Assembly (NCBI GenBank): GCA_030017895.1 | Contig: JASEGV010000025.1 | Span: forward strand, 1-38,748 | From: Bacteroidota bacterium | Lineage (GTDB): Bacteria; Bacteroidota; Ignavibacteria; UBA10030; BY39 | Direction of reading: 5' to 3' | Length of the DNA stretch: 38,748 bases | Shown: in pieces, positions 4,611-34,278 of the stretch | Numbering within the stretch: the stretch's first letter is position 1 | Layout: each line of letters starts with the position of its first letter | Notes under the pieces: model-generated | Databases searched by the model: none | The model's input: the letters and a program-made list of their open reading frames with translations, nothing else | Told to the model about the DNA's origin: nothing | Translations under genes and position numbers: made by a program

Positions 4611-5909
4611 TCAAACCTCCACCACATGCGGAGCTTTTACAGGTTGCCGCTGAATTGGTTCTTTGCGTGCTCTCTTCTCGAATTCATTCCTGAATTTTTT
4701 AATCACACTTTGCACAGGCCAAGCGGCAGCATCGCCGAGAGCACAAACAGTGTTACCCTCAATATTGTTGGCTACATCGAGGAGCAAATCAACATCACTC
4801 ATAGTTCCGTTCCCGTTAAGGAATCTCTCTAAAATCTTTTCCATCCAACCGCAACCTTCGCGGCAAGGAGTGCATTGTCCGCAAGATTCATGGTGATAAA
4901 AATGAACAAGTCGTTTTAAAACTTTCAGGACATCTGTATCCTCATCCAACACAATTACACCACCTGTGCCGATAGCAGAACCGGCAGCTTTGAGCGATTC
5001 TAAATCCATCCGAACTCCATCTAACTCATCACTCAATAACCACGGCACAGAAGAACCACCGGGAATTACGGCTTTTAGTTTTTTACCGTCTTTGATTCCA
5101 CCGGAAAATTTGTAAATTAAATCTGTGAGTAGTACACTCGTTGGAAGTTCATAAACTCCGGGTTTGTTGACGTGACCGCTAATTCCAAATAAAATGGTAC
5201 CAGGATGTCTCGAGTCGCCGATTTTTGAAAACCACTCTCCTCCATTCAAAATAATAGATGGTATGCACGAAAGAGTTTCAATATTATTTACGTTCGTCGG
5301 ATTACCCCACAGTCCTGATTGAGCCGGGAATGGTGGCTTGACACGCGGGTAGCCACGCTCGCCTTCGATTGAATTCATTAGCGAAGATTCTTCGCCGCAA
5401 ATATAAGCACCCGCTCCCCGATGAATGTAAATATCGGTGCTATAATTTTTTCCTAAAATATTTTTCCCAATGTAATTTTTGTCGTAAGCTTCATCAATTG
5501 CTTGTTGAAGTATATCTATCCACTTTTTGTATTCACCCCGAATGTAAACATAGGTTGCATTAATTCCCATAGCATAACTTGCTATCAAGCATCCTTCTAT
5601 AAAAAGGTGAGGATTGAATTCAAAAATTTGTCTGTCTTTAAAAGTTCCGGGTTCTCCTTCATCGCCATTAGCACAAAGGTATTTTGGCTTCTCGTTCGAT
5701 TTGGGCATAAAACTCCACTTCAATCCGGTCGGGAAAGCAGCTCCTCCGCGACCGCGTAATCCGGATTTTTTAACTTCATCTATCACCTCGTCGGGCTTCA
5801 TTTCAAATATTTTCCTCAAAGCCGCATAGCCGTTGTGCTGTTGGTAAATTTCGAGTCTGTGGAGATTAAGAATCTCGGGAAGTAATATCTTTATGGTAGA
5901 TTCTGACAT
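4611..5909 (-). CDS. nuoF: NADH-quinone oxidoreductase subunit F
   Basis: The 432-residue NADH-dehydrogenase module subunit of complex I. It binds NADH and FMN and carries the N3 [4Fe-4S] cluster on the cytoplasmic arm. LRGRGGAAFPTGLKW (51-65) is the FMN/NADH-binding glycine-rich loop, followed by CANGDEGEPGTFKDR and GAYICGEESSL. The cluster ligands are Cys343, Cys346 and Cys349 in ESCGQCTPC, plus Cys389 in TVCALGD. Length agrees with the family. It is the last gene of a leftward operon, with its ATG 4 bp after the nuoE stop. nuoG does not follow; instead two convergent-gene hairpins lie beyond the stop, so the remaining subunits must be encoded elsewhere. Confidence 0.96.
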   Translation of the reverse strand: MSESTIKILLPEILNLHRLEIYQQHNGYAALRKIFEMKPDEVIDEVKKSGLRGRGGAAFPTGLKWSFMPKSNEKPKYLCANGDEGEPGTFKDRQIFEFNPHLFIEGCLIASYAMGINATYVYIRGEYKKWIDILQQAIDEAYDKNYIGKNILGKNYSTDIYIHRGAGAYICGEESSLMNSIEGERGYPRVKPPFPAQSGLWGNPTNVNNIETLSCIPSIILNGGEWFSKIGDSRHPGTILFGISGHVNKPGVYELPTSVLLTDLIYKFSGGIKDGKKLKAVIPGGSSVPWLLSDELDGVRMDLESLKAAGSAIGTGGVIVLDEDTDVLKVLKRLVHFYHHESCGQCTPCREGCGWMEKILERFLNGNGTMSDVDLLLDVANNIEGNTVCALGDAAAWPVQSVIKKFRNEFEKRARKEPIQRQPVKAPHVVEV

Positions 5910-6379: not shown

Positions 6380-7615
6380 TTACTTGTCTGCTTCTCCCAT
6401 AACCGGGTCGATGCTGCCGATAATAGCTACAACATCCGAGATAAGATGTCCTTTTAACAAAACCGGTAATGCTTGTATATTTATAAATGAAGGTGAATGA
6501 ATTTTTAAACGCCACGGTGCACCCTCTCCGAGACTTGATATATAAAATCCTAATTCACCTTTTGAATTTTCAATCGCTTGATAAACTTCACCGACGGGCG
6601 GATTGATTCCAAAATTTATCAGCATGAAATCGTGTATAAGTTCTTCCATCTTTCCGTAGATACGTTCTTTCGAGGGCAAAACTTTTTTTGGTAGTGCCGC
6701 ATTAACAGGACCCTTTGGAATTTTTTCAAGTGCCTGACGAATTATTTTAACACTCTGTTTCATTTCTTCCATACGAATATAAAACCGTGCTATGGCATCG
6801 CCATCGTCGTAAGTCGGAATATCAAAATCGAATTCATCGTAAATGAGATACGGTTCGTCTCGACGTAAGTCGTGAGCCACACCCGATGCCCGAAGATTCG
6901 GACCAGTTAAGCCCATAGCGATTGCGTCGTGTTTTGAAATTACTCCTACACCTTCGCATCTTTGTATAAAGATACGGTTTTTAAAAAGTAAACCTTCGAC
7001 ATCTTTTATTTTTTCGGGGAATTGATCAAGGAAATTTTTCAGCATTGCAATGGCTTCATCCGACATATCCTGAGCCAACCCGCCGATGCGTGTGAAACTT
7101 GTTGTGAACCGAACTCCGGTAAAAACATCCTGTATATCCTGAAGTTTTTCCCTTTCTCTGAAGCCCCACAACAAAACTGTAAGCGCCCCCACATCCATTG
7201 CAGTTGAACCCATTGCAACAAGATGGGACATAATGCGAGCCATTTCGGCAATGATAACTCGGATAAACTGGGCTCTTCGTGGAACCTTGATGCCGGCTAA
7301 TTTTTCGACTGCTAAAACATAAGCAACATTGTTCGCTAAAGGCGAAAGATAATCTAACCTGTCGGTATGCGGTATGTATTCGTGGTAAGTCATATTTTCC
7401 GCGAGTTTTTCGTAACCGCGGTGTAGATAACCAACTTCCGGAACTGTTCCGAGAATGGTTTCTCCATTTAAACGAATCAGTAAACGTAAAACGCCGTGTG
7501 TAGCCGGATGTTGAGGCCCCATATTCAAGATCATATCATTCTCAAGAGGGTCATCAAAATATACACTTACATCCTGATTCTCGAGTGCTTGCAGTATTTT
7601 ACTTTTTGTATTCAT
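6380..7615 (-). CDS. nuoD: NADH-quinone oxidoreductase subunit D
   Basis: A 411-residue 49-kDa subunit of complex I that lines the quinone-binding cavity together with NuoB. MILNMGPQHPATHGVLR near the N terminus carries the conserved quinone-site His, and GYLHRGYEKLAE, DRLDYLSP and RASGVAHDLRRDEPY follow as expected of the group. The C-terminal GEGAPWRLKIHSPSF and DPVMGEADK, ending at the lysine, are family hallmarks. This gene is separate from nuoC, unlike the nuoCD fusion of enterobacteria. It lies 12 bp after nuoC and 1 bp before nuoE. Confidence 0.97.
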   Translation of the reverse strand: MNTKSKILQALENQDVSVYFDDPLENDMILNMGPQHPATHGVLRLLIRLNGETILGTVPEVGYLHRGYEKLAENMTYHEYIPHTDRLDYLSPLANNVAYVLAVEKLAGIKVPRRAQFIRVIIAEMARIMSHLVAMGSTAMDVGALTVLLWGFREREKLQDIQDVFTGVRFTTSFTRIGGLAQDMSDEAIAMLKNFLDQFPEKIKDVEGLLFKNRIFIQRCEGVGVISKHDAIAMGLTGPNLRASGVAHDLRRDEPYLIYDEFDFDIPTYDDGDAIARFYIRMEEMKQSVKIIRQALEKIPKGPVNAALPKKVLPSKERIYGKMEELIHDFMLINFGINPPVGEVYQAIENSKGELGFYISSLGEGAPWRLKIHSPSFINIQALPVLLKGHLISDVVAIIGSIDPVMGEADK

Positions 7616-29812: not shown

Positions 29813-30060
29813 TTGAATTATGTAGAAAGAATAAAAAGCAGCGGTGTGGTGGGTTGCGGCGGTGCGGGCTTTCCTGCTCACGTCAAGGCAGCATTAAAAG
29901 TTTAATATGTAATAGCAAATAAAGCTGAATGCGAATCACTTTTGGATAAAGATTTGGAATTAATGAAACATGAACCCGAAGTGGTTGTTGGTTGGCTGAA
30001 TAATGATTTTTACTTACTTGCTCAAAAAAAGAAATAATCGCCTTTATAATTAATAAAATA
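29813..30060 (+). pseudogene. Decayed 5' copy of the pduS-like gene
   Basis: The frame from TTG 29813 reads NYVERIKSSGVVGCGGAGFPAH and continues with AECESLLDKDLELM and HEPEVVVG, clearly the start of the protein encoded at 31659. A GAA codon of the intact gene (in KVEYVIAN) is TAA here, and later the match shifts by one frame (KKEIIAF against KKAIIGV) and fades near 30060. Only about 80 codons are recognisable. It is two bases past the phosphatase stop. It represents either a tandem duplicate that decayed or the residue of a recombination that inserted the outer-membrane gene at 30087. Confidence 0.88.
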
Positions 30061-30086: not shown

Positions 30087-31577
30087 ATGAAACATAACGG
30101 ATTTCTTTTAGCCATGTTAAGCCTCCTCATTTATCACAATTCAAATGCTCAATATTACCAATACTATCTGAGTGACCCATATAGCACTTCGATAGTCTTT
30201 GATAATATCTTCACACTTCCAAAACCCACAGACTCATATCAATCGCAAAGAATGCGGACATTTTCTGAAGGCTCATTCGGTCTAATACTGGACGATTACT
30301 CAGACCATTTCCGCAATCCAGCATATTTGATAGAGGGTAATAAAAATGAAATTTTTGGTGATTTAGGATCTATTCAGGATAATGGTAAATTCTTTTTAGG
30401 GGGGTTTGTTCCAATTGTAGACAAATCATTAGGTATATCTATCAATCTTGAAGGTTTGAAAAAATACAAAAACACAACAGAATATAATTCTTCTAGTTTA
30501 GACCAAGATTATATAAATACATTTACAGAAGAAAACTCTCCCAAAAAATATGGGACAAGATTAAGTTTTTCAAGCCCTATCAGCTCTGAAGTAACTGCCG
30601 GTGTAAGCTATCATTTTTTAAAATTTGAAGCACGAACCCAGTCGAGTCAAATCAGAAATAATTCTTCCTCATCAAATTATTATGATTATATAAGATTATT
30701 AGATTTATCAAAATTTGGAACAATCCATAAAATTGATGCTGGAACATTATTAAATTTTACAAAATTTGTTTTGGATTTGAAAACAACGTTATTATTTTCA
30801 TCACACCAATCCAAAAGTCAGGATGAAACAACAACTCGTTCATCATCTTTGATAGAATATTTTGCGAGGATCGGACCCACAGATATCGATACACGAGGCG
30901 GATTAATTTCAGCGTTACTAAGTTACACGTCTCCGGATAAAAGTCATTATCTCAGATTCTTGGTTCAGTCGGGCTATACCTCGTATGACATAAAAGGTAT
31001 TTTAATCCAAATGGACACTGTTAGATATTTGCCTGGACCCGCTTATAAATATATTTTAAATAGTACACGCGAAGGAGATGGAACCGTTTTAGATATCAGA
31101 AGTGGTTGCAGCTATGAAAGAAATTTTTCTGAAACTTTTATGGCTTTTGGTGCTATTTCAGTGAATTATATTCTCCATAAAACAAATATTTCAGAAAATG
31201 GGAACCGTAGTTATATTGGTAACATTACAACTACAGAAAATATTTCAAAAACTCCATCAGAAACGACAGAAACTATAGACATTCGATTACCTATAGTTAT
31301 CGAATATTATCATGGTGATTATGTAATTCTGCGAGGTGGGGTCGAACCAAAATATAGATCAGGTGAAACAATAAAATCTTTTCTGACTAGTGAAATTTAC
31401 AACAATAGTGCTCTTACCTACGGGCATAAAAATGAAATAACACGTAATGAATTATCACTGACATTAAATTTCGGTGCAACTTTCAAACATAACGATTATG
31501 GTGCTGTAGATTTACTCTTTGGTAATGTTTTAACAGATACGAAATTCTGGTCAATATCTATAAGGTTATTTTTATAA
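30087..31577 (+). CDS. Outer-membrane beta-barrel protein, distant paralogue of the 14614 gene
   Basis: A 496-residue exported protein with signal peptide MKHNGFLLAMLSLLIYHNSNA, then beta-strand-rich sequence with many Tyr, Ser and Asn residues, ending TKFWSISIRLFL with an aromatic near the C terminus as in outer-membrane barrels. LILDDYSDHFRNPA (about 70-83) matches the pattern IVDDPIRDVFINPA in the other barrel protein. Good ribosome site AAGGAG eight bases before the ATG. It lies between the pduS pseudogene and intact pduS. Function unknown; no evidence for a link to the microcompartment beyond position. Confidence 0.65.
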   Translation: MKHNGFLLAMLSLLIYHNSNAQYYQYYLSDPYSTSIVFDNIFTLPKPTDSYQSQRMRTFSEGSFGLILDDYSDHFRNPAYLIEGNKNEIFGDLGSIQDNGKFFLGGFVPIVDKSLGISINLEGLKKYKNTTEYNSSSLDQDYINTFTEENSPKKYGTRLSFSSPISSEVTAGVSYHFLKFEARTQSSQIRNNSSSSNYYDYIRLLDLSKFGTIHKIDAGTLLNFTKFVLDLKTTLLFSSHQSKSQDETTTRSSSLIEYFARIGPTDIDTRGGLISALLSYTSPDKSHYLRFLVQSGYTSYDIKGILIQMDTVRYLPGPAYKYILNSTREGDGTVLDIRSGCSYERNFSETFMAFGAISVNYILHKTNISENGNRSYIGNITTTENISKTPSETTETIDIRLPIVIEYYHGDYVILRGGVEPKYRSGETIKSFLTSEIYNNSALTYGHKNEITRNELSLTLNFGATFKHNDYGAVDLLFGNVLTDTKFWSISIRLFL

Positions 31578-31658: not shown

Positions 31659-32972
31659 TTGACATACATAGAAAGAATCAGATCGGCAGGCGTTGTCGGC
31701 TGCGGCGGTGCCGGATTTCCCGCCCACATCAAGGCTTCTTCCAAAGTTGAATATGTGATAGCAAATGGCGCCGAGTGTGAACCGCTCCTTCATAAAGATT
31801 TGGAATTAATGATACATGAACCTGAAGCGGTTGTGGGTGGACTGATCCAGTGGTTAGTTTCTACAGGTTCAAAAAAAGCAATCATTGGCGTAAAGCGAAA
31901 GCACGAAGAATCTCTTTCGGGTTTAAAGAAAGCGGCTGAAAATACAAACATCCAACTAAATTGGCTTGGCGATTTTTATCCCACCGGTGATGAGTATGTT
32001 CTGGTTTATGAAACAACAAAACGTTTAATTCCGCCACAAGGTATTCCATTAGATGTAGGTATCGTTGTAAATAATGTGGAAACATTACGTAACGCGTATC
32101 TGGCATCGGAAGGAATTCCGGTTACACACAAATACATTTCAGTTGTTGGGGCAGTAAATAAACCATCTACACTTTTAGTCCCTATCGGAATTAGTTTTGC
32201 GGAAGTAATCGCGGCGGCTGGTGGTGCTAATGTTTCCGACTTCGCCGTCTTCATCAGCGGTATTATGATGGGAACGCTCACAACCGATATGAGTTTACCT
32301 ATTACAAAAACTTGCGCCGGACTTGTTGTTCTTCCTATGGAGCATCGACTTGTAAAACGTAAAAGTTTACCCGAGACCTCGATGCACCGAATCGGGAAAT
32401 CAGCATGCGACCAGTGCAGTTACTGCACGGAGTTTTGTCCGCGTTACTTGCTTGGCTACGATGTTCAGCCACATAAAGTTATGCGAAGCCTCGGTTTTAC
32501 TGTAACCGGCGAAGCATTATGGAATCAATATGCTCAGCTTTGCTGTGCTTGCGGCTTGTGCACGTTGTATGCCTGCCCTGAAGATTTATATCCAAAAGAA
32601 GCATGCGACCGTGCTAAATCGGATTTACGCGCTAAAGGAATGAAGTGGGAAGGCAAACGCGATGTTAAAGTCCACCCTCTTGGCGAAGGTCGCCGAACTC
32701 CTTTAAAACAACTCGTAAAAAAATTAGGTGTTGATCGCTACGATGGACCGGCACATTTTGAAGATGTGAAATTTTCACCTAATATTGTTCGCATACCTCT
32801 TTCACAGCACATCGGTTCACCCGCTTTGCCTATGGTCAATGTTGGAAAAGCAGTAAAGATAGGTGATGTAATTGGTGATATTCCGGATGGAAAATTAGGA
32901 GCACGTATTCACTCAAGCATCGACGGAGTTGTAACAAAGATTAATAGTGAAGTGGTGATTGAGAAGAAATGA
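31659..32972 (+). CDS. PduS-type RnfC-like flavin/iron-sulfur electron-transfer protein
   Basis: A 437-residue protein of the RnfC/PduS family. GVVGCGGAGFPAHIK (residues 10-24) opens a Complex1_51K-like FMN/NADH-binding domain; an SLBB domain follows (about 160-215). Two ferredoxin-type clusters are ligated by Cys250, 253, 256, 260 (CDQCSYCTEFC) and Cys295, 298, 301, 306 (CCACGLCTLYAC). A lipoyl-like barrel ends the chain (GAPALP-type and IHSSIDGVVTKI). PduS in the propanediol microcompartment is a flavoprotein that reduces cob(III)alamin and is thought to pass electrons through shell protein PduT. A PduT-like gene lies 750 bp downstream, supporting a microcompartment role over a membrane Rnf complex. 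TTG start with AGG upstream. Confidence 0.87.
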   Translation: MTYIERIRSAGVVGCGGAGFPAHIKASSKVEYVIANGAECEPLLHKDLELMIHEPEAVVGGLIQWLVSTGSKKAIIGVKRKHEESLSGLKKAAENTNIQLNWLGDFYPTGDEYVLVYETTKRLIPPQGIPLDVGIVVNNVETLRNAYLASEGIPVTHKYISVVGAVNKPSTLLVPIGISFAEVIAAAGGANVSDFAVFISGIMMGTLTTDMSLPITKTCAGLVVLPMEHRLVKRKSLPETSMHRIGKSACDQCSYCTEFCPRYLLGYDVQPHKVMRSLGFTVTGEALWNQYAQLCCACGLCTLYACPEDLYPKEACDRAKSDLRAKGMKWEGKRDVKVHPLGEGRRTPLKQLVKKLGVDRYDGPAHFEDVKFSPNIVRIPLSQHIGSPALPMVNVGKAVKIGDVIGDIPDGKLGARIHSSIDGVVTKINSEVVIEKK

Positions 32973-33083
32973 GATGAGTGATTTTAGATTTATGATTTTG
33001 GATATAGAATTTATGGTTTTGAATTTTAATTTTAAATTTTGATATCATTTTTAACGAGGAACAAACTAAGCTCGAATATTAGT

Positions 33084-33647
33084 ATGGTGAAAACAAAATC
33101 TATAATACCAGTAGGATTGATCGAACAACGAATCTTTATCATCAGAGGATTAAAGGTAATGATCGACCGTGACCTTGCAGACCTCTATGCAGTTGAAACA
33201 AAATATTTGAATCGTCAAGTTAAACGTAATAAAGACCGATTCCCAAGTGAATTCATGTTCAAGCTTACGAAAAAAGAACGAAACGAACTGGTGACAAATT
33301 GGCACCGGTTCGATACACTTAAGCATTCGTATGTTTTACCATACGCCTTTACAGAACATGGTGTTGCTATGCTCGCATCTGTGCTGAAAAGTGAACGGGC
33401 TATAAAGATGAGTATAATGATTGTAAAAGCATTTGTGCGACTGAGAGAGTTCCTTGCAACGCAACGAGAACTATCAAAGAAAATCCACATTCTTGAATCG
33501 AAAATTGATACACACGATAAGGAAATTCATTCGATAATCGAAGCAATACGCCAACTTCTCCAACCACCTGAAAAACCAAAAAGAGAGATTGGGTTTCGTA
33601 TTTCAGAACCTAAAGTAATATACAGCACTCGAAGAAAGAACAAATAA
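33084..33647 (+). CDS. ORF6N-domain protein
   Basis: A 187-residue protein whose N-terminal half is the ORF6N DNA-binding domain: VGLIEQRIFIIRGLKVMIDRDLADLYAVETKYLNRQVKRN, then FPSEFMFKLTKKER. A coiled-coil-prone region (about 130-165, LATQRELSKKIHILESKI) and a basic tail (STRRKNK) follow. Such proteins are of phage ancestry but are scattered singly in chromosomes of this group. The frame extends to a TTG at 33039; the ATG at 33084 gives the usual N terminus. It lies between the pduS- and pduT-like genes without apparent functional connection. Confidence 0.82.
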   Translation: MVKTKSIIPVGLIEQRIFIIRGLKVMIDRDLADLYAVETKYLNRQVKRNKDRFPSEFMFKLTKKERNELVTNWHRFDTLKHSYVLPYAFTEHGVAMLASVLKSERAIKMSIMIVKAFVRLREFLATQRELSKKIHILESKIDTHDKEIHSIIEAIRQLLQPPEKPKREIGFRISEPKVIYSTRRKNK

Positions 33648-33723
33648 CTATTTACTCATATGCTTAGAGTAGTAGAGATTAAGAATAAAATTAGTAACGA
33701 ACATAGAATAATAGGAATTTAAT

Positions 33724-34278
33724 ATGATAGAAATGAATGCAATAGGACTTGTAGAATTATCGAGTATCGCGGCTGGCTTCGAGGTAGCAGATACGATGCT
33801 CAAAACTTCGGAAGTAGAACTTCTCGTTATGCGAAGTATCTGCTCGGGAAAATTTATGGTCTTGGTTGGCGGCGACGTAGCAGCCGTTCGTGCAAGTGTT
33901 GAAGCCGGAGAACGAACTGGAGCCGGTTGTGTAGTGGATGCTATGGTAATACCCAATGTCCATAAATCGGTTTTCCCTGCAATCTCCGGTATGAGTCAGG
34001 TTGAAGTGCTTGAGGCGCTCGGTATCGTTGAGTCGTTTAGTGTTGCTTCACTTATCGAAGCGGCAGATGCATCAGCAAAAGCAGCGAATGTGAAGTTGAT
34101 TGAAGTCCGACTTGCAATGGCATTAGGAGGCAAAGCGTTTGTGACAATGACAGGTGAGGTTGCTGCTGTCCGCTCGGCAGTTGAAGCGGGCGCTTCAGTA
34201 TGTGCTAAACGCGGATTGTTGGTAAATAAAGTCGTTATAGCAAATCCGAAAAAGGAGTTGCTGAAAGAGATGATATGA
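33724..34278 (+). CDS. PduT-type tandem-BMC shell protein with Fe-S Cys
   Basis: A 184-residue protein with two BMC domains (about 5-88 and 95-180), hence a trimeric pseudohexameric shell protein (BMC-T). Domain one: AIGLVELSSIAAGFEVADTML; domain two: ALGIVESFSVASLIEAAD. The segment RSICSGKFMVLVGGD with Cys40 matches the loop of PduT whose Cys38 binds a [4Fe-4S] cluster at the trimer axis, and the link PNVHKSVFPAISG matches PduT too. This cluster would let electrons cross a microcompartment shell, with PduS as partner. AGGA precedes the ATG. No further shell gene is visible in the window. Confidence 0.9.
   Translation: MIEMNAIGLVELSSIAAGFEVADTMLKTSEVELLVMRSICSGKFMVLVGGDVAAVRASVEAGERTGAGCVVDAMVIPNVHKSVFPAISGMSQVEVLEALGIVESFSVASLIEAADASAKAANVKLIEVRLAMALGGKAFVTMTGEVAAVRSAVEAGASVCAKRGLLVNKVVIANPKKELLKEMI

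Follow-up and report, generated by a model that had tools for sequence, protein, structure and literature searches.

The Locus and Its Two Genes

The window analysed here spans 38,748 bases and is the entire contig C25 of a draft genome (3.20 Mb, 176 contigs, completeness 100, contamination 0.7) of an Ignavibacteriota-like bacterium. Two genes on its forward strand are the subject of this study. The first (31659–32972, +) starts with TTG and encodes a protein of 437 aa, which by homology is a PduS-type NADH:FMN/Fe-S oxidoreductase. The second (33724–34278, +) encodes a PduT-type shell protein of 184 aa, a tandem-domain protein (BMC-T) of a bacterial microcompartment (BMC), recognised from two PF00936 domains and its predicted structure. 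A profile search of the window found no PF00936 or PF03319 gene besides pduT, in agreement with an earlier sequence-only reading that the rest of a BMC locus is missing beside the pair. We propose that the pair is probably the electron-export module of a FRAG-type deoxyribose-5-phosphate metabolosome, in which NADH would be discharged via PduS and the pore cluster of PduT.

PduS has four Pfam domains in the order Complex1_51K, SLBB, Fer4_17 and RnfC_N, and a PduS architecture with these domains has been published (PMC6325248; this and the other papers given here by PMC number are cited for individual passages). The glycine-rich FMN/NADH motif GCGGAGFP lies at residues 14–21 (31698–31721, +), and the Complex1_51K match begins at residue 7. 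The eight cluster cysteines fall into two motifs, C250-x2-C-x2-C-x3-C260 (C250/253/256/260; 32406–32438, +) and C295-x2-C-x2-C-x4-C306 (C295/298/301/306; 32541–32576, +). In an alignment of 104 sequences including the window copy (98 distinct), each of these cysteines was kept in 104/104 sequences, except C306 (103/104). The tetracysteine spacing is identical to that of Citrobacter PduS, an NADH-dependent protein with FMN and two [4Fe-4S] clusters that binds PduT and reduces cobalamin; outward electron transfer by the PduS/PduT pair has already been suggested for Citrobacter (PMC2982820). The sequence-only reading had described a PduS-type protein with an FMN-type N terminus, an SLBB domain and eight cluster cysteines, and both the domains and the alignment agree with it.

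The best match of PduS in a plasmid collection (39% identity) was from Ilyobacter, located beside a BMC-domain gene and a few genes from pduB and propanediol/glycerol dehydratase. A second full-length match (37%) was an SLBB protein directly upstream of an annotated pduT in a pdu operon. RsxC and PrdC rows among the matches listed (15 of 64 records) scored lower. The protein reached 223.7 bits as RnfC (TIGR01945, curated cut-off 245.95) and 193.8 bits as PrdC (TIGR04481, curated cut-off 490), and both names were rejected. Its nearest solved relative by sequence is RnfC (7zc6).

The two BMC domains of PduT were matched with an E-value of 3.8e-47. The monomer model had a predicted local distance difference test score (pLDDT) of 91.9 and resembled 3nwg with a VIA Z of 28.9 (root-mean-square deviation 1.4, 180 aligned) and 3pac with a VIA Z of 27.8 (1.7, 180 aligned). 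The entry 3pac is titled as PduT with a 4Fe-4S cluster binding site, and 3n79 is its C38S mutant. Cys40 of the window protein (codon 33841–33843, +) lies in the loop ICSGKF and, in an ungapped alignment, is paired with Cys38, which is the position mutated in 3n79. It is cysteine in 101/101 sequences (including the window copy; 95 distinct), while Cys69 and Cys160 vary. Two further statements of the sequence-only reading, that this is a tandem-BMC protein with Cys40 in ICSGKF and that Cys40 is the matching cysteine of PduT, are borne out by the two domains, the conservation and the ungapped alignment. By homology to Cys38, Cys40 is a predicted [4Fe-4S] ligand at the pore axis of the trimer.

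Shell and Candidate Cargo Genes Elsewhere in the Genome

The whole-genome search that the sequence-only reading had recommended (PF00936, PF03319, a tailed aldehyde dehydrogenase and signature enzymes) found BMC-H, BMC-P, aldehyde dehydrogenase (AldDH) and DeoC genes. Two BMC-H genes (PF00936) lie on contig C55 in the profile search. Exactly three PF03319 (BMC-P) matches were found, two on C35 and one on C19. The C35 pair is in line with the phosphopentomutase gene deoB across a 5-bp gap, and DeoB scores above the curated cut-off of TIGR01696. The C19 gene stands after a phosphoglucomutase-type gene. C16 encodes an AldDH of 539 aa (634 bits; cut-off of TIGR02518, acetaldehyde dehydrogenase (acetylating), 620.1), and C23 encodes a DeoC (PF01791; 276.5 bits, TIGR00126 cut-off 117.3). 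The other shell genes found, AldDH and DeoC thus occupy five contigs besides that of the window. No main BMC operon was found in the genome: BMC-H (C55, with another PF00936 gene on C25) and BMC-P (C35, C19) share no contig.

Three further AldDH genes were rejected as cargo. Only 15 residues follow the Pfam domain in the C57 protein and 6 in the C24 protein, and the C22 protein was judged by eye. A second PF01791 match (C11, 351 aa) is by eye a class I fructose-bisphosphate-type aldolase without a tail. The second BMC-H gene (L008:15877–16479, −) encodes a C-terminal extension of about 110 aa with only a weak KIX_2 match. A gene resembling this extended BMC-H follows the BMC-H gene in 7/7 BMC-H loci examined.

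Co-Occurrence across the Order

We searched 98 genomes of the order for PF00936, DeoC, PduS, AldDH and PF03319, and 68/98 had some shell gene. A DeoC was counted as N-extended when its match started no later than query residue 27, which applied to 56 genomes; in 36 cases the tail was inspected directly. The threshold was E ≤ 1e-100 for AldDH and at least 56% identity for a PduS ortholog. N-extended DeoC occurred in 56/68 shell genomes versus 0/30 shell-less genomes, AldDH in 54/68 versus 0/30, and the PduS ortholog in 33/68 versus 0/30, with a divergent PduS in 8 further shell genomes. The DeoC of genome G058 matched in two pieces. In a within-family permutation, 0/20,000 replicates reached the observed association, and within genera p was 0.016 for DeoC and 0.018 for AldDH. 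Within the genus g19, G029 and G031 have a shell, a tailed DeoC and AldDH. G026, G027, G028 and G030 have neither shell nor AldDH; their DeoCs have no helix or Cys motif, and that of G030 has an internal stop. In genome G070 the dispersed set coexists with a further BMC locus of compact form (stretch L243), which comprises three BMC-P, an AldDH at 27% and BMC-H.

PduS-PduT as an Optional Unit

The core set of shell, N-extended DeoC and AldDH was present in 51 genomes: 30 with the PduS ortholog, 20 without PduS and one (G063) with only a divergent PduS. The 30 genomes with PduS had PF00936 counts of 4 (20 genomes), 5 (4), 6 (2), 7 (1), 1 (2) and 2 (1). The 20 genomes without PduS had exactly two PF00936 matches each and so no sign of PduT; absence of PduT here means this count of two, and both matches adjoin in frames of unequal length in 19 genomes (one is listed for G078). 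In 29/30 order loci examined, PduT lies downstream of PduS in the same orientation, and the 30th (L163) stops at a contig edge. Judged by gene content, PduS-PduT is one optional, all-or-none unit. The order is a natural experiment on this conduit, with 30 core genomes that have the pair, 20 that do not, and a compartment that is otherwise similar.

The linkage extends to named PduT loci, of which the best 80 of 113 were analysed. PduS adjoins PduT in 76/80 by script and also in L050; the loci L082 and L090 start close to a contig edge, which leaves L084 as the only real exception. Another shell gene was present in the available flank of 23/80 loci. In 20/80, flanks of at least 8 kb to either side contained no other shell gene, and the profile search showed PduT alone in 20/20 of these; the flanks of the other 37/80 were too short to judge orphan status. 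Orphan pairs also occurred in records titled Acidobacteria, Verrucomicrobia, Elusimicrobia, Latescibacterota and Cloacimonadota, among others. MAGs assigned to the culturable Melioribacter roseus (L032 and L063) likewise have the pair with no shell gene close by. Nine named loci (seven titled Elusimicrobia, L071 and L095) have the pair, BMC-H, three BMC-P, AldDH and DeoC in a single stretch, which directly links this pair family to a DeoC compartment.

Dispersal of the Compartment Genes

The assembly G019 (about 10 contigs) carries the parts at C7:16 kb, C7:392 kb, C6:149 kb, C6:162 kb, C4:208 kb and C4:225 kb. The distances between these six fragments range from 11 kb to hundreds of kb, where the fragments do not lie on separate contigs. 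The surroundings of the fragments recur between genomes. Among 19 loci of the BMC-P pair, an RpoD gene follows in 17 and DeoB precedes in 12 (L243, a 20th stretch, belongs to another BMC). The order PGM-BMC-P3-DprA was found in 8/8 loci, and the BMC-H pair was near YbbR in 5/7. AldDH has RuvB within 3 kb in 5/5 loci and MPG adjacent in 4/5. In G016, the PduS-PduT pair is 3.4 kb from the BMC-H pair. As read from these neighbourhoods, the dispersal of the compartment genes is real and old, and in the loci sampled the fragments largely keep their addresses. Several compartment genes lie near DNA-repair or DNA-uptake genes, namely RuvB and MPG (L018), DprA (L010) and MutS (the window), which may be coincidence.

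Putative Targeting Tails and the DeoC Linker

The DeoC model has an N-terminal helix at residues 3–15, a segment at residues 17–69 with pLDDT below 50, and then the barrel. The mean pLDDT of the tail was 78 over residues 1–10 and 59 over residues 11–20. AldDH C-termini were examined in 30 of the 54 genomes; 29 extend into a conserved helix-like tail and one (L181) ends early. Compared with shuffled sequences, amphipathicity had a mean z of 1.72 for the DeoC tails (n = 36, range 0.33 to 3.17) and 1.65 for the AldDH tails (n = 30, range −0.16 to 3.10); control windows in the DeoC core gave 0.02. The N-terminal helix of DeoC and the C-terminal helix of AldDH appear to be encapsulation-peptide (EP)-like, the DeoC tail having the terminal amphipathic helix and flexible linker typical of EPs, and from them we infer encapsulation.

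Between the helix and the aldolase barrel, the alignment shows a DeoC linker motif C-x4-C-x4-C-x2-H-N at residues 31–45 (gene L020:1438–2337, −). Across 35 tailed DeoCs, C36, C41, H44 and N45 never vary, and C31 almost never does. The strict cysteine pattern fits 33/36 tailed versus 0/14 untailed DeoC loci and is absent from all other frames of the loci scanned; the tailed DeoCs L215, L216 and L218 have a variant spacing. The motif is a possible metal or Fe-S site, and no description of it was found in the literature searched. Nine DeoCs of the sugar phosphate utilization (SPU) type all have Cys-rich linkers of other kinds in the corresponding position. The linkers of L071 (2271–3746) and L095 (near 3524) carry a ferredoxin-like CxxCxxCxxxCP signature. 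A single open frame of L071 joins an RpiB-type domain (PF02502) to the upstream side of PF01791.

Comparison with Known Microcompartments

FRAG BMCs were described in Ignavibacteriae; their shell genes are spread over as many as six places, no signature enzyme was obvious, and their function was left open (Sutter et al. 2021, PMC8217296). The present system resembles them in its dispersed shell genes, its occurrence in Ignavibacteriae and its mostly remote position from known enzymes (PMC8217296). FRAG BMCs have a BMC-P triplet, for which the three PF03319 genes of this genome are candidate counterparts. As in FRAG BMCs, no locus holds both BMC-H and BMC-P (C55, C35, C19, C25). It differs in that an EP-tailed DeoC and an optional PduS-PduT unit are tied to the shell by co-occurrence. 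FRAG genes are not neighbours, so gene neighbourhood cannot settle their function. Co-occurrence within one order gives a testable assignment, deoxyribose-5-phosphate via an EP-tailed DeoC and an acetylating AldDH. In the open-access literature searched from 2021 on, PMC8217296 was the only paper retrieved on FRAG BMCs, and among the titles listed in wider searches none concerned a DeoC assignment for them.

SPU BMCs share a DeoC-type PF01791 enzyme and AldDH as cargo, and the same PduS-PduT family is present in the nine one-stretch loci. Here, however, enzymes and shell are on separate contigs, and the AldDH is only 26–32% identical to those of the one-stretch and similar loci. We do not file the system of this genome as SPU, though it would work like one. 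Pdu/GRM systems share the four-domain PduS, the cysteine spacing, the adjacent pduT and a pore cysteine within the published C-P/S/A-G-K/R/S-Y/F motif (PMC2982820, PMC6325248), but the present pair is outside any Pdu/GRM operon, and neither PduL nor Fe-alcohol dehydrogenase was found in the genome. The HO BMC of Haliangium likewise has in some genomes a distant DeoC with an EP-like N-terminal extension, but HO has a main locus (PMC8217296).

The sequence-only reading had suggested a satellite of a main BMC elsewhere. The pair resembles satellite loci in being an incomplete shell set away from other shell genes; the definition of such loci also includes a non-satellite BMC locus elsewhere (Axen 2014, PMC4207490), and none was found in this genome. 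The suggestion is supported insofar as BMC-H, BMC-P, a tailed AldDH and a tailed DeoC lie elsewhere in the genome, but the parts found are all dispersed, with no main locus.

Proposed Function and Alternatives

The proposed compartment would have a shell of two BMC-H, three BMC-P and the BMC-T of the window, and its cargo would be the N-tailed DeoC and the C-tailed acetylating acetaldehyde dehydrogenase. The enzyme reactions are assigned because of the named families. A DeoB-type phosphopentomutase would supply deoxyribose-5-phosphate, from which DeoC would yield acetaldehyde, and AldDH would convert this to acetyl-CoA and NADH. PduS would oxidise the lumenal NADH via FMN and two [4Fe-4S] clusters. 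The electrons would then pass to a [4Fe-4S] cluster on the three Cys40 residues of the PduT trimer and on to a cytosolic acceptor. No PduL and no Fe-alcohol dehydrogenase were found in this genome, so NADH discharge through the pair would be the simplest balance. What the sequences show is the gene content, the conserved domains and cysteines, the dispersal, the co-occurrence and the all-or-none pair; encapsulation, the substrate, the electron direction and the electron acceptor are what we infer from these.

A broader proposal is more tentative, and we rate it a little short of an even call: ignavibacterial FRAG compartments may be DNA-sugar metabolosomes whose genes became dispersed in a common ancestor and since then have mostly stayed at fixed addresses, and in many lineages PduS-PduT export, rather than PduL and an internal alcohol dehydrogenase, may close the NAD cycle. 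If true, these would be respiratory metabolosomes that oxidise acetaldehyde fully.

Several observations count against the proposed compartment and its electron export. Among the core genomes, 20/51 manage without PduS and PduT, so electron export is not the sole means of redox balance, and another route exists or none is needed. N-extended DeoC is lacking in 12 shell genomes (G014, G018, G032, G038, G045, G047, G048, G049, G051, G052, G067 and G077) and AldDH in 14 (G008, G009, G014, G021, G038, G081, G082 and the last seven of the former list). Those seven have a divergent PduS (40–52%) and probably represent another BMC type. G018, which is 100% complete, has a shell and AldDH with no DeoC match, and G081, likewise 100% complete, has a shell and N-extended DeoC with no AldDH at the cut-off. 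The shell-less G060 (L211) has a DeoC with a helix-like N-terminus without the Cys motif, possibly after a recent loss of the compartment. The tails of the window genome itself are borderline, as shuffles reach their value in 4.8% (DeoC) and 7.3% (AldDH) of cases. The window PduT scores 119.2 bits against a cut-off of 250.3 for the equivalog TIGR02526 (eut_PduT), so we name it PduT-type and do not assign it to that equivalog. The search for an alcohol dehydrogenase covered only the Fe type, for which the two weak genome matches are dehydroquinate synthases by Pfam. CoA recycling inside the compartment is likewise unexplained by the gene set. Three PTA_PTB matches were considered as a Pta-type phosphotransacylase (PTAC); the best (327 aa) has no room for a tail, and the other two were not read.

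The pair might instead run inward or serve maintenance, bringing electrons into the lumen, for instance so that a metal or Fe-S site in the aldolase linker or in some other cargo stays reduced. The invariant C36, C41 and H44 and near-invariant C31 of the DeoC linker, the Cys-rich linkers of the nine SPU-type DeoCs, and the proposal that PduS reduces an activating enzyme in GRM compartments (PMC6325248) would suit this maintenance role. The Cys motif also occurs, however, in genomes without the pair, such as G011, G012, G013 and G022 (L121, L123, L124, L125), and the NADH made inside by a dehydrogenase would lead one to expect an outward load; we consider the inward direction unlikely. It is more doubtful still that PduS serves a B12 enzyme as a cobalamin reductase in the manner of the Pdu compartment. 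Citrobacter PduS does reduce cobalamin and bind PduT (PMC2982820), but SPU and GRM loci hold PduS without cobalamin-dependent enzymes (Axen 2014, PMC4207490). No B12 enzyme was seen by eye in the six compartment-gene neighbourhoods read in this genome, and no genome-wide search for B12 enzymes was made.

The isolation of the pair has also to be explained. It stands alone in the window, as it does in the 20/80 named loci without another shell gene, and a decayed pduS copy lies upstream, all of which could indicate a leftover or a free pore and flavin reductase outside any compartment. The sequence-only reading had likewise considered that a shell pore might work outside a normal metabolosome. 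This use is not supported, as PduS was found in 0/30 shell-less genomes of the order; that absence, the conserved ligand cysteines and the pduS-pduT linkage in 29/30 loci make such explanations very improbable. That the isolation is an assembly artefact, with a full operon adjoining the contig end, is scarcely credible: the draft is in 176 contigs and C25 continues only 4.5 kb past pduT, but all other shell genes found lie inside other contigs, the parts are dispersed in G019 as well, and the window-type MutS and ECF-sigma genes flank the pair in 3/80 named loci, which are the three nearest relatives.

Neighbouring Genes and Local History

Two genes interrupt the surroundings of pduS and are outside the system. 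A lineage-specific open reading frame (ORF) of 496 aa without a Pfam family (30087–31577, +) lies between the upstream gene and pduS. It is also in L023 and L142 and was not found in L024, L025, L143, L144 or L145. An ORF6N-domain gene (PF10543; 33039–33647, +) lies between pduS and pduT. Of the PduS loci examined, 2/30 have it in this position (G000 and G004, which belong to the genus of the window), and L023 has it too. Genes with this domain are often part of mobile elements. Further upstream, a decayed segment (29813–29998, +; 77% identity to PduS residues 1–62, with an in-frame stop) repeats the first 62 codons of pduS at the spot where relatives carry this gene, which in them begins at the end of an upstream phosphatase-like gene. 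From this comparison of loci, the history in the window's genus is that the 496-aa ORF came in upstream of pduS and the ORF6N gene parted pduS from pduT; the decayed 5′-end marks the old place of pduS. The ORF6N gene, the decayed copy and the TTG start of pduS had no place in the sequence-only reading.

The arrangement of MutS, PduS-PduT and ECF sigma genes recurs in L023, L024 and L025. Complex I genes lie about 24 kb from the pair (NuoF-type, 4611–5909; 49-kDa subunit, 6380–7615), and this Complex I is a possible cytosolic sink for the exported electrons. The window PduT is 89% identical to the PduT of a record titled 'Ignavibacteriae bacterium isolate BY39'.

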